From Verrucomicrobiota bacterium (GTDB lineage: Bacteria > Verrucomicrobiota > Verrucomicrobiia > Opitutales > Opitutaceae): a DNA stretch of 64,000 nt. Location of the stretch: NCBI GenBank assembly GCA_026398135.1, contig JAPLTN010000004.1:1-64000 (forward strand), read 5' to 3'. Positions 2,938 to 7,014 of the stretch are shown here, piece by piece. Made by a program: the position numbers and the translations under genes. The notes beneath the pieces were generated by a model, which was given only the letters and a program-made list of their open reading frames with translations, was not told the DNA's origin and did no database searches. Positions within the stretch are counted from its first letter, which is position 1; each line of letters begins with the position of its first letter.

Positions 2938-3546
2938 TCAGTGCGTGACCCGCCAGATCAACGCGAGCAGGCCGAGAAACAGGATCCAGCCCATCACCGC
3001 GCGCAAAACCGGCCAGCGCGCGAAGGTTTTCCAGGCCTCGTCGGCCACATTCGCGATCGGTCCAAAATCCAGGGGACGCGGCACCATGCGGGTGAGTTCC
3101 ATCTCCGGCCCGGCCTCGATGTAGGCGGCGCGCATCGCTTCGATCAGTTCCGGCGGCGGGGGCGTCTCGGCCAGGAAGTGCTGGGGCCAGCGCGCCGGCA
3201 CGTCCGCCATCACCAGTGCGATGCGACCGCGGGTGCCGAGTCGCTCATCCTCGGGGTCGGCCGCATCGCCCAAGACCATTTGAAACCAAGCCGTGGTGCG
3301 GCGCTCCGCCTCGTGCATCGCGCGAGCCACCGGATCCAGGCTGTCGCCCGCTCCGGTATGCGCCTGGGCGGTGCGGACCGCCGCGCGCACGATCTCCATC
3401 GCGAGCCGGTTCAACACCAGCCGGCTTTCGATTTGGTGCGCGCGCAAGTAACTCTCGACCCGCAGAAAGGCTTCGTCCCAGGCAGGACCAATGGGGTCGT
3501 CAAGCACAGGGGGATTCATCGTCGGGGAAACTCCGGCGTCACTCAT
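2938..3546 (-). CDS. Unknown C-terminally membrane-anchored protein between opgG and opgH
   Basis: A 202-residue protein starting at the ATG of an ATGA overlap with the opgG stop (3543-3546). The body is soluble and mostly helical (for example RLAMEIVRAAVRTAQAH and ARAMHEAERRTTAWF). A single hydrophobic segment near the C-terminus (VMGWILFLGLLALIW) suggests a tail-anchored membrane protein facing the cytoplasm. It lies 45 bases before opgH, so it is very probably translated and transcribed with the glucan genes. No domain is recognised. Possible roles are assembly or regulation of OpgH, by context only. Confidence 0.8.
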   Translation of the reverse strand: MSDAGVSPTMNPPVLDDPIGPAWDEAFLRVESYLRAHQIESRLVLNRLAMEIVRAAVRTAQAHTGAGDSLDPVARAMHEAERRTTAWFQMVLGDAADPEDERLGTRGRIALVMADVPARWPQHFLAETPPPPELIEAMRAAYIEAGPEMELTRMVPRPLDFGPIANVADEAWKTFARWPVLRAVMGWILFLGLLALIWRVTH

Positions 3547-5183
3547 GGCAGCCAAGTGTAAACCCAGGTTTCCGAAACCGGCTCATAACCATCGCGCAAG
3601 CGCACGCGCAATTCCACCGGCTTGGGTTTTTCTCCGGGCTGGGGCGGATTCTCCCCCTCGATCTGCAAGGCCACACGCCAGCCATCGATGCCCGGGTGGG
3701 GGATCATGGTCTGGTGACGCAATTTAGCGCCCGACCCCAGATCGATCTGCGGAGCCAGGTTCGCCGGATTGCGCTGCCCGAGCCCGGCGCCCGCAAAGTC
3801 GATCCAGAAGAGCTGCCCCCAGCCGTGATCCGGCAAATGCCCGATCCGGGTGGACTGCACGCGTGCCAGATTGTCGTCGCCCGGCTGGGCCAGCGACCAC
3901 GTCATGCGATAGGCCAGATCGAAAGGTTTGCCCACTTCGGGCTTTTTATCCGGCACCCAGTAGGCAACCACGTTGTCCCCGTACTCGTTTACGGTGGGCA
4001 GCTCGACCAGGCGCACCTGGCCACCACCCCAGTCGCCCACCGGCTCGATCCAGCAGCTGGGGCGCTCGTGGTAACGGGCTTCAAAATCTTCGTAGGCCGA
4101 GATGGCGCGCTCACGTTGGATAAGTCCGAAACGAATCGGTTTCACCGCGCGCAAATCCGTATTCAAAATGTAACGCGGATTCTGCAGGGGACGCCAGATG
4201 TGCGCGCCGTCGGCGGTATGTAATAAGAGCCCGTCCGAATCATGCACCTGCGGGCGCACGTCGCCGCCGGGACGATCCGAGTTTTTCCCAAACCAAAACA
4301 TGCTGGTCAGCGGAGCCATGCCCGGCAGGGCGATGTTGTCGCGAGCATAAAGCCGGGCGCGCACATTAATCACGGTCGGATGACCGGGCTTGATGACAAA
4401 CTCGTAGGCTCCGGCGATGCGTTTGCTATCAAGCAGGGCATACACCGTGATTTCGGTCGCGCCCGGCCGGGGTTTGCCGATCCAGAAGTCCGTGAACACC
4501 GGGAACTCTTCCGTGACTCCGGGCACGCCGGAATCGACCGCCAGGCCGCGCGAGGACAGGCCGTATATCTGGCCCGCCCCGAGCGCCCGGAAATACGAGG
4601 CGCCATGGAAAACCGCCACCTCATCGAAGGTATCCGGCCGGTTCATCGGGTAGTGCAACCGGAAGCCGGAGTAACCCAAGGAGGAGCGCAAGGACCCCAT
4701 GTTGCCCAGTTTGCCGTAGTCAAAAAAGTCCCGGATAAACGGGATCGTCTGCACATGGGTGGAGCTGAACTCGCGAATCTGCACCTCCTCGCGCACCGCC
4801 GCCGTGCGGTGAAAAAGGTGCAACTGAAACGGCAGCGCCTCGTTGCGCCAGAGCGCCTGGTCCGGCCGGAAACGGATGTCGCGGATCTCGTCATAGTTCA
4901 GCTCGGCCAGACGCTTGGGCAGTTCGCGATCCGGCTCTTTATATGGCGCGGCGGCACGTTCCGCGGCCAGGCCGCCTACATAGTCATAGGTCACTTCCAG
5001 CCGCTCGATCGCGGCGGATAGCGTGCCCGCCGGCATCGCCAGCCAGGCGGCGCTCCAGCCAAGAACGGCGACGAGAAGGGTTTTCGAGGATGAGGTTTTC
5101 ACGTAAAAACGAATAAGCGGCGTAGAAAGCACCCGGACCCCGCGCAATGCAAACGCAGAGCGCGCTCCGCCCGTTACCTTCAT
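3543..5183 (-). CDS. opgG: Periplasmic glucans biosynthesis protein OpgG/MdoG
   Basis: A periplasmic protein needed for osmoregulated periplasmic glucan synthesis alongside OpgH. The sequence follows the OpgG family throughout: FHGASYFRALGAGQIYGLSS, GLAVDSGVPG, FWIGKPRPGATEITVYALLDS, APLTSMFWFG and VAYWVPDKKPEVGK are typical blocks. The ATG at 5183 overlaps the preceding stop as ATGA and gives 546 residues. However, the signal peptide (about residues 28-58, TLLVAVLGWSAAWLAMPAG) would be N-terminal if the GTG at 5102 were used, so 5102 (519 residues) is an equally plausible start. It is encoded directly after the dnaX tau-tail frame and before the unknown protein and opgH. Confidence 0.93.
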   Translation of the reverse strand: MKVTGGARSAFALRGVRVLSTPLIRFYVKTSSSKTLLVAVLGWSAAWLAMPAGTLSAAIERLEVTYDYVGGLAAERAAAPYKEPDRELPKRLAELNYDEIRDIRFRPDQALWRNEALPFQLHLFHRTAAVREEVQIREFSSTHVQTIPFIRDFFDYGKLGNMGSLRSSLGYSGFRLHYPMNRPDTFDEVAVFHGASYFRALGAGQIYGLSSRGLAVDSGVPGVTEEFPVFTDFWIGKPRPGATEITVYALLDSKRIAGAYEFVIKPGHPTVINVRARLYARDNIALPGMAPLTSMFWFGKNSDRPGGDVRPQVHDSDGLLLHTADGAHIWRPLQNPRYILNTDLRAVKPIRFGLIQRERAISAYEDFEARYHERPSCWIEPVGDWGGGQVRLVELPTVNEYGDNVVAYWVPDKKPEVGKPFDLAYRMTWSLAQPGDDNLARVQSTRIGHLPDHGWGQLFWIDFAGAGLGQRNPANLAPQIDLGSGAKLRHQTMIPHPGIDGWRVALQIEGENPPQPGEKPKPVELRVRLRDGYEPVSETWVYTWLP

Positions 5184-5695
5184 GGCGCGGCCTTGCGGGC
5201 GGCGACCGGATCCAGCGCCTGGGACGGCACGCGTTTCACCGTCGTAAACCGCACCCGCAAAAGCTCCTCCATCGTCTCGCGCACTTCGGCGGGCACGCGC
5301 CCGAGCAACACGTCAAGCCCAGGCAAGGGCGCCCCCGGCCGCGTGGCTTCGGAATCGTTATCCTCGTCCGCGACCATCCGCCCCCGCGTCTTGCGCGGCG
5401 CTTGGGCGGCGTCGCTCGCCGCGACCTCCATGCGCATCCGCGCCTCCAATTCCTCCACCGGCGGACCGTCATCGTCGCCAGTCGCGGCCGCAACGGCGGA
5501 CGGAATGATTGCCTCCGTCCAGTCGTCCGCCGCATCACCCGCGCCTGCAACCGGGGAGGGCGCGACGGCTGGCGCGGCGGCGGAATTTCGCGGTGGAGCG
5601 ATAGCCGCCAGTGCCAGACCGCGCTTGGGTGGCGCACTCGCCACTGAAGCGGCCAGATAGGCCACCACCGCGATCTCAAGCCGGTCGATCAGGGC
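5180..5695 (-). CDS. dnaX: Tau-like C-terminal extension of DnaX in the -1 frame
   Basis: This frame is open from the A10 tract at the end of dnaX and encodes about 171 residues beginning [20 protein letters not shown]. If translated alone it would start at a GTG near 5668 (162 residues). A -1 shift, or one extra A in the transcript, at the tract fuses it to the ATPase part to make a roughly 555-residue tau-like subunit. The layout fits tau: an Ala/Pro-rich linker, an acidic middle, then a compact end ([20 protein letters not shown], then [11 protein letters not shown]). In known tau proteins the C-terminal domains bind DnaB and the polymerase alpha subunit; here that role is inferred. It ends in an ATGA overlap with opgG. 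Alternatively it is one ordinary gene with a homopolymer length error in the sequence. Confidence 0.7.
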
Positions 5696-6846
5696 TTTTT
5701 TTTTTGGTCCGCCGCGCCATCGGCGGGCAGTTCGGCGGACAACGCGGCCAACTCCTTCAACAACGAGTCAATAGCCCGCGAACGCGAGGCATCGACCGCT
5801 TTGAGCAAGGTCACTTCCAAATTGATTTTATCCGACAGGCCCAGCTTCACGCTGTCCTCCCCTTGGCGCAGCACATCCAGCATGCGCGTGATTTGTTCGG
5901 TGGTGAGCGGCACCCCGCCCAGCGCGCCCGACCGCCCGCCTTGTGCAATGGCGTGCAACAAACTCTCCCTCACATGCGCCTGTAAATCCGCCAGCAACCG
6001 CGCCAGATCGCGCCCGGCCGCGTCGCACTCGTCCACCAACCGGATAATCTCGGCGTGGTCCCCTGCCGCGAGCGCGGCGGCCAGCGCGGCCAGCTTGTCG
6101 GCCGAGACTAATCCATAAACATCCAGCACGTCGGCCTCGTCGATCTTGAGCCCGCAAAACGAAATCATCTGGTCGAAAATCGACTGCGCGTCGCGCATAC
6201 CGCCGTCCGCCATGCGCGCCACGCACGAAAGCGCGGCCTCGGTAACCTCGATTTTCTCCGCCACCGCGATTTTTTTCAGCCGTTCGATGATCAGCGGCGC
6301 GGGGATCGGCTTGAGGTCGAAGCGCTGGCAACGCGAGACGATGGTCGGCAAAACTTTTTGCGGATCCGTGGTCGCAAACACGAATTTCACATGCGGCGGC
6401 GGCTCCTCCAGCGTTTTCAGCAGAGCGTTAAACGCCGCCGCCGAAAGCATGTGCACCTCGTCGATGATGTAGATTTTGAACTTACCCTGCGCCGGGGTGT
6501 ACTGGACCGTTTCGCGCAGATCACGGACTTGGTCCACGCCGTTGTTCGAAGCACCGTCGATCTCGATCACATCAAGATGGCTGCCTGCCGCGATGGAAAG
6601 ACACGCCGGGTCGGCCGGGTCGAAATCCGCCTTGGGCCCGTCGGTGCAATTCAAAGCCTTGGCAAAAATACGCGCGGTCGAGGTCTTGCCCGTGCCGCGC
6701 GGCCCGACGAACAGGTAGGCGTGCGCGATGCGCTGCCGGGCGATGGCGTTGCGCAGCGTGCGCACGACGTGATCCTGCCCGACGACATCGTCGAAAGTCT
6801 GGGGGCGCCACTTGCGGGCGATAACTTGGTAGGCGGCTTGCGACAC
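5689..6846 (-). CDS. dnaX: DNA polymerase III subunit gamma (short DnaX form)
   Basis: An AAA+ clamp-loader ATPase of the replisome. GTG at 6846 ([16 protein letters not shown]) gives 385 residues. An in-frame start at 6933 is rejected because it would run into the SRP RNA. Walker A is GPRGTGKTS (about residue 44), the DExx box is IIDEVHMLS, and [11 protein letters not shown] matches sensor 2. The zinc module is degenerate: family members have four cysteines (C, then PCGxCxxC), but only NC and PAC remain here. In frame, the gene stops seven codons after the GAC preceding the A10 tract (CAA AAA AAA AAG CCC TGA). SRP RNA lies directly upstream, a common bacterial arrangement. Confidence 0.95.
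5696..5705 (-). promoter_or_regulatory. A10 slippery tract, probable programmed frameshift or transcript slippage site
   Basis: Ten consecutive A on the minus strand end in G, so the tract contains A AAA AAG, the heptamer used for -1 frameshifting in E. coli dnaX. The 0 frame stops within two codons after the tract, while the -1 frame is open for 171 codons. No clear upstream Shine-Dalgarno stimulator and only weak downstream pairing are visible, which fits transcript slippage (as in Thermus dnaX) at least as well as ribosomal shifting. Confidence 0.65.
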
Positions 6847-6918
6847 AGGAAAGACCCAGCAAAGCACGCGTCCCGGAGCGAAGCGCAAACCCGAAAACAC
6901 TTCGGGTAAAAGTAAAGT

Positions 6919-7014
6919 GGCCAGGCCTTCCACGGCACTGAGAGAACGTCGTCACCGTTGCTGCCTTCCGGCCCTGGCGGAGTTCACGCGCCTGCCCATG
7001 CATGGCGCCTGGCC
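6919..7014 (-). ncRNA. ffs: Signal recognition particle RNA, small bacterial (4.5S) type
   Basis: The RNA component of the signal recognition particle, partner of Ffh. The conserved apical motif CAGGGCCGGAAGGCAGCAAC is present on the minus strand (about 6956-6975), with the SRP tetraloop GGAA and asymmetric loop sequence. The ends pair perfectly: GGCCAGGC at the 5' end (7014-7007) with GCCTGGCC at the 3' end (6926-6919), giving about 96 nt. It lies 72 bases before the dnaX GTG, a gene order also seen in other bacteria. Confidence 0.9.

Follow-up and report, generated by a model that had tools for sequence, protein, structure and literature searches.

In Escherichia coli, frame 0 of dnaX gives the tau protein, and a -1 ribosomal frameshift at an in-frame A_AAA_AAG gives gamma, which ends close to the shift site (reviewed in PMC5009743). 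In Thermus thermophilus, tau is also the frame-0 product, and gamma is described as the result of transcriptional slippage on a run of nine As (Larsen 2000, as cited in PMC1088944 and PMC5009743). A further arrangement was reported by Antonov et al. in 2013, who listed 17 dnaX fs-genes that need recoding for tau, all with tau in the -1 frame at the DNA level; 12 of the 17 are given with a poly(A) stretch of 7 to 10 As and nine of the 17 with 10 As, and transcriptional realignment was proposed (PMC3711429). Here we describe dnaX in a stretch of 64,000 nucleotides (nt) from a Verrucomicrobiota bacterium (assembly GCA_026398135.1, contig JAPLTN010000004.1, positions 1 to 64,000; the window), in which gamma lies in frame 0 and tau in the -1 frame behind a tract of ten As (A10). 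A tract of this kind (8 to 12 As) is found in 228 genes of the order, with tau in the -1, 0, or +1 frame, and RNA polymerase slippage on the tract is the probable means by which one dnaX sequence yields both gamma and tau.

The window gene shares with the two-open reading frame (ORF) dnaX genes of Antonov et al. a gamma part in frame 0, a tau part in an overlapping -1 frame, and a poly(A) tract at the frame transition that is conserved across genera (A10 in the window, and a tract in all 228 genes of the order). Since a two-ORF dnaX with tau recoded at 10 As is already in print, the window gene belongs to a published type, and members of this order may already be among the 17 genes listed in PMC3711429. 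Unlike that set, in which tau is always in the -1 frame, the order adds 25 genes with tau in +1 and 30 with tau in frame 0 behind the same tract. With T. thermophilus, as far as its gene is described in the papers cited above, the window gene has in common an A-run of at least 9 near the gamma/tau junction and nearby stops in both non-tau frames, but there tau is the frame-0 product and slippage gives gamma, whereas here gamma is in frame 0 and slippage would give tau. The in-frame A_AAA_AAG and a gamma end close to the shift site also recall E. coli; the outcome is, however, reversed, and the window gene has a longer tract, two tRNA-Lys species, and no structure signal. Such reversed arrangements are mentioned for a few bacteria in the 2016 review, which names Chlorobium phaeobacteroides as a candidate for a ribosomal frameshift with reversed outcome and states that a one-base change can swap the roles when the shift is about 50% (PMC5009743). 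In Blochmannia dnaX, too, a homopolymer breaks the frame and slippage was proposed as the correction, but that break is placed inside the tau-only region past the shift site, in endosymbiont genomes under reduction (PMC3017870). In the open-licence PMC literature, neither +1 tau genes nor a three-way frame mix within a single order turned up, and no paper on dnaX recoding in Opitutaceae was found. The window gene is thus of a known type, and the order-wide drift of the frame is the new part.

Results

The coordinates of the window gene are given in Table 1. In minus-strand codons, the junction reads GAC CAA AAA AAA AAG CCC TGA. Past the tract, frame 0 closes after 2 codons and the third frame after 6. 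The 0-frame product matches the gamma/tau model TIGR02397 (E 2.2e-127) as well as the Pfam families DNA_pol3_delta2 and DNA_pol3_gamma3. The original prediction had placed in dnaX an A10 tract followed by G, a 0-frame stop two codons on, and a -1 frame of 171 codons, and direct reading of the DNA agreed with it in every coordinate. Apart from the dnaX tract, no A/T run in the 3.39-Mb genome reaches a length of 10. Eight A/T runs of 9 or more are present in the whole genome and, judged by ORFs alone, only the dnaX tract and one T9 lie well within a gene, the rest being outside genes or at their edge. The T9 run is in a glycosyltransferase-like ORF (L137, contig C77 of the same genome, 46154-46162) and is a possible slippage site in its own right.

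Table 1. Positions of the dnaX gene and its parts in the window
Feature	Coordinates	Strand	Remarks
Whole dnaX	6846 to 5180	-	
Likely start codon	6846-6844	-	GTG
dnaX 0-frame ORF, gamma form	5689..6846	-	GTG start, 385 amino acids (aa), DnaX family matches
A10 slippery tract, then G	5696..5705	-	holds in-frame A_AAA_AAG
0-frame TGA ending gamma	5689..5691	-	two codons past tract
Tau-specific part, -1 frame	5180..5695	-	171 aa plus stop; codons from 5695 down to 5183, stop 5182-5180

Relatives share this layout. Of 15 genomes of the genus, 14 carry A10 in the same frame; the remaining one (G014) has A9, so that its tau is in +1. In the family, f1, which we infer to be Opitutaceae from the named records that share the arrangement (Cephaloticoccus primus CAG34 and several Opitutaceae metagenome-assembled genomes [MAGs]), 144 of 205 loci were scanned, namely, those with listed or fetched places. 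Two of these are cut before the tract and one ends 43 codons past it, which leaves 141 scorable loci. Tau is in -1 in 138 of them, 123 with A10 and 15 with A9; in one of the 138 (L323), a second frame is also open, for 81 codons. The other three genes have tau in frame 0 (two, with A11 and A12) or in +1 (one, with A9). Single-contig genomes are included: G001, G017, G018, G034, and G062 have A10 and tau in -1, and G084 has A9 and tau in -1. The isolate record of C. primus (L060) carries A10. A search of 25 f1 genomes showed that, as in the window genome, the dnaX tract is the only A10/T10 run in 12; a run of this length is lacking in three others, and another two have a single one elsewhere or on a contig not tied to dnaX. 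The reversed polarity relative to E. coli that the original prediction proposed, with the short form in frame 0 and tau in -1, therefore holds over genus and family, single-contig genomes included.

In the order, counted with f1, we define a tract gene as one with a run of at least 8 As at the gamma/tau junction; outside f1, 100 of the 121 searched genomes were fetched. This gave 228 tract genes in 19 families. The tract is kept in deep-branching families of the gene tree, and its length is A8 in 2, A9 in 41, A10 in 181, A11 in 3, and A12 in 1 gene, so that 226 of 228 have a run of at least 9. The tau frame varies: it is -1 in 173 genes, 0 in 30, and +1 in 25. Although several families are represented by one or two rows, tau is wholly in -1 in f3, f4, f10, f17, and f22 and nearly so in f1; in frame 0 in f2, f5, f8, f9, f11, f14, and f19; in +1 in f13; and mixed in f7, f15, f16, f18, and f20. 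Eleven rows with runs below 8 were not counted, comprising L143 (f5), L162 (f7), and families f6, f21, and f23, whose genomes are about 0.8 to 1.0 Mb in size and in which none of 9 rows has a run of 8. Left out of the family and order analyses were a weak match with A10 and tau in -1 (L018) and an N-terminal piece (L352); L270 and L348, which are cut before the tract, and L015, L188, and L212, which end too soon after it, were also dropped. Three genomes of the order with a completeness of at least 90% (G215, G270, and G310) yielded no match to DnaX at E 0.001, which is probably due to assembly gaps.

The frame assignment was supported by a tau profile trained on 137 f1 segments in the -1 frame alone. 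In its first pass, the profile recognized another 33 segments, with -1, 0, and +1 all represented, and after iteration it backed the assigned frame in 212 of the 228 genes, with no locus matched in two frames; L190 and L206 of f15, for example, are frame 0 by profile. The other 16 genes were assigned by ORF length alone (3 in -1, 5 in 0, and 8 in +1) and include 7 of the 10 f13 genes. On a 120-gene tree from which the tract was excluded, the frame changed at least 15 times, compared to a mean of 46 for shuffled frames, and at least 12 times once the rows with A8 and the three f1 exceptions were removed; support is weak at many forks of this tree (44 of 117 open), so these numbers are a guide. 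A change in tract length as the sole cause of the frame changes had to be given up, since it fails in part of 12 hand-picked pairs of genes. Eight pairs differ in both length and frame; length alone fits five of them (four events, as L005 occurs twice), among them the window gene and that of a close relative, and does not fit the other three, and half of such pairs would fit by chance. Three further pairs are equal in length and different in frame and, like the three unfitted ones, need indels in the flanks. The last pair proved to have the same frame.

Outside the order, 93 genomes of the class were searched and the DNA of 80 was read. In 79 of the 80 genes, frame 0 runs for at least 442 codons, well beyond the junction (one is cut by a contig end at 361), and no A-run longer than 8 was found between residue 330 and the stop in the genes read. 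Within the class, the long tract and the split therefore seem to be peculiar to this order, as far as these genes can tell. Some named loci of other groups have A9 to A11 near the junction, with tau in frame 0 (e.g., L094, L098, L101, and L106).

The tau-specific part comprises 171 aa in the window, compared to a median of 133 codons over the 228 genes. A helix is predicted for residues 2 to 20, directly after the junction. It is followed by a variable linker, and the C-terminal block beyond this is conserved, with the majority sequence LPxLDxLxxRIPxxxRExLEELFRAKFxxVxRVP. The part is conserved within genus and order, and the ratio of nonsynonymous to synonymous changes (pN/pS; uncorrected counts, 12 genus members) is 0.56 for the tau part and 0.44 for its C-terminal block, compared to 0.14 for the gamma part. 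No Pfam or NCBIfam family was matched by the 171 codons at E 0.001. AlphaFold modeled the tau part with confidence in the helices only (mean predicted local distance difference test score of 70, predicted template modeling score of 0.31). In a comparison with 56 single-frame DnaX C termini from named loci, hhalign gave the C-terminal block a probability of 18% (E 0.0013), against 0.5% (E 0.11) for a reversed control. Because this similarity is weak, homology of the block to other DnaX C termini is only suggestive. We take the segment to be tau on account of its position, its fusion to gamma in the frame-0 relatives, and the weak similarity to the DnaX C-terminal motif; by analogy to tau of E. 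coli, the block may bind the polymerase.

Stops follow the tract closely in the frames that do not encode tau. Both non-tau frames are closed within 12 codons in 216 of the 228 tract genes (80 of 87 outside f1), compared to 222 of 2,305 control positions in the tau part and 397 of 3,179 in the gamma part; these counts ignore relatedness. The heptamer A_AAA_AAG is in frame in the window and in 124 of the 173 -1 genes. It is absent in the other 49, that is, in 27 of 138 in f1, where mostly AAC replaces AAG, and in 22 of 35 elsewhere. Folding was scored as a z-score over the 60 nt downstream of the tract with 40 shuffles each, with a control at position +150. Downstream of the tract in the window, there was no sign of a stem-loop (z = -0.10, compared to -0.53 at its own control position and -1.59 upstream), nor was a clear stem found in the -1 genes (mean z of -0.40 in 41 f1 genes, control -0.10; -0.27 in 35 others, control -0.45). 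The 30 frame-0 genes gave a mean of -0.18 (control 0.13). The stretch upstream of the tract that was read by eye for a Shine-Dalgarno-like stimulator is ggcgcggcggacc. The genome encodes tRNA-Lys with CTT and with TTT anticodons. At L354 (contig C31 of the same genome), a transfer-messenger RNA, tRNA-Thr(TGT), and tRNA-Lys(CTT) are clustered within 1 kb.

Discussion

In our model, RNA polymerase slips on A10 and would thereby produce mRNAs with 9, 10, 11, or more As. The unslipped A10 mRNA would be translated in frame 0 up to the stop two codons on and give gamma; the gain of one A, or the loss of two, would join the ATPase part to the -1 segment and give a tau of about 555 aa; and the third class of mRNA would reach a stop after 6 more codons and give another gamma-like protein. 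The roles of these products would be those known for DnaX in E. coli and Thermus. We regard this reading as probable; the layout of the gene points to slippage as the mechanism, and its direction and rate are part of the model. Three facts favor slippage: the tract is kept while the tau frame behind it varies, the non-tau frames are closed, and the heptamer is missing in 49 of the 173 -1 genes. Because slippage would supply all three frames, the frame of tau at the DNA level could drift among relatives and tau would still be made. On runs of 7 to 11 As, slippage is reported to yield more insertions than deletions (PMC6260861), an excess that would suit the -1 genes, since one extra A makes tau.

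One objection to a split dnaX, which the original prediction regarded as its main rival, is a one-base homopolymer error in sequencing or assembly that hides a single continuous frame. The genome is assembled in 117 contigs and a close relative (L005) reads A9, which would be in line with such an error. Nevertheless, because A10 with tau in -1 recurs in 14 of 15 genus genomes, because 138 of 141 f1 genes have tau in -1, and because single-contig f1 genomes and the isolate record of C. primus have the same layout, we reject it; as a general explanation, the error is refuted by the sequences of the relatives, and for the window it is hardly conceivable. If the split is real, the post-tract part could still be a separate protein with an internal start (e.g., at GTG 5668), or the gene could be decaying and make gamma alone. 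A GTG-started ORF of 162 aa is indeed present and the tau part evolves fast, but the post-tract part is fused in frame to gamma in 30 relatives of the order, 25 of them recognized by the tau profile, its pN/pS is below 1, and the tract is kept in deep-branching families, which makes both versions very improbable. The split dnaX is real and conserved, and it is presumably functional.

A programmed -1 ribosomal frameshift at A_AAA_AAG, with the long A-run merely adding to it, would also make tau, and it has to be taken more seriously. The window and most -1 genes (124 of 173) have the heptamer in frame, and tau in -1 is nearly fixed in f1 (138 of 141). These two observations also weigh against slippage, as do several others. 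Bacterial RNA polymerase is reported to be biased to slip on T runs over A runs (PMC6260861). Constraint on the tau part is weak, with a pN/pS of 0.56 and synonymous changes near saturation, and a non-tau frame stays open for more than 12 codons in 12 of the 228 genes. The 25 +1 genes are predicted to fold slightly more strongly past the tract than the -1 genes do (mean z of -0.75, control 0.19). Furthermore, the deviating tract lengths of L005, L330, L333, and L172 may be errors, since many genomes are fragmented MAG-like assemblies. The ribosomal shift, for its part, meets difficulties in the same genes: the heptamer is missing from 49 of the 173 -1 genes, folding gives no clear signal of a structure past the tract in the -1 genes, the run is at least 9 in 226 of 228 genes and thus longer than the heptamer requires, and two tRNA-Lys genes (CTT and TTT) are present, whereas E. 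coli is described as reading AAA and AAG with one (PMC5009743). Tau is in 0 or +1 in 55 of the 228 genes behind the same tract; a -1 shift could be used by the -1 genes alone and therefore fails for these, the +1 frame being out of its reach altogether. Because the tau frame varies behind the same tract, transcriptional slippage is more likely than a reversed version of the ribosomal shift of E. coli, which we consider unlikely as the source of tau. A ribosomal -1 contribution may nevertheless exist in the window gene, since -1 dominates f1 and the heptamer is present.

For the order as a whole, we propose, somewhat more cautiously than slippage itself, that dnaX has no fixed frame in the middle of the gene: the tract and the stops in the two non-tau frames would be selected, and the frame of tau would wander (at least 12 to 15 changes). 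If true, indels at the junction would be tolerated in an essential replication gene, and the slippage spectrum, not the ribosome, would set the tau-to-gamma ratio. With 228 genes of one order presenting all three frame relations behind one conserved tract, transcriptional and ribosomal recoding can be separated more easily, and dnaX, essential in well-studied bacteria, seems able to let its frame relation drift. Annotation pipelines may report genes of this kind as truncated or broken and overlook their tau-specific part.

The opgG/mdoG ORF (3543-5183, minus strand) overlaps the stop of tau by ATGA. As an ORF overlap, this feature of the original prediction exists, but it is absent in all seven genus relatives whose tau end was inspected, and similarity to opgG starts at residue 16 of opgG or later in the 12 relatives found. 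The overlapping ORF is probably over-long, with the true start downstream, e.g., at the GTG that precedes KTSSSKTLLVAVLGWSAAWLA. Because the overlap is not conserved, a coupling of opgG translation to that of tau via ATGA was rejected, and the recoding system does not appear to include the overlap. On the other side of the gene, a match to the bacterial small signal recognition particle RNA (RF00169, 61.3 bits; 6916-7014, minus strand) lies directly upstream of dnaX.

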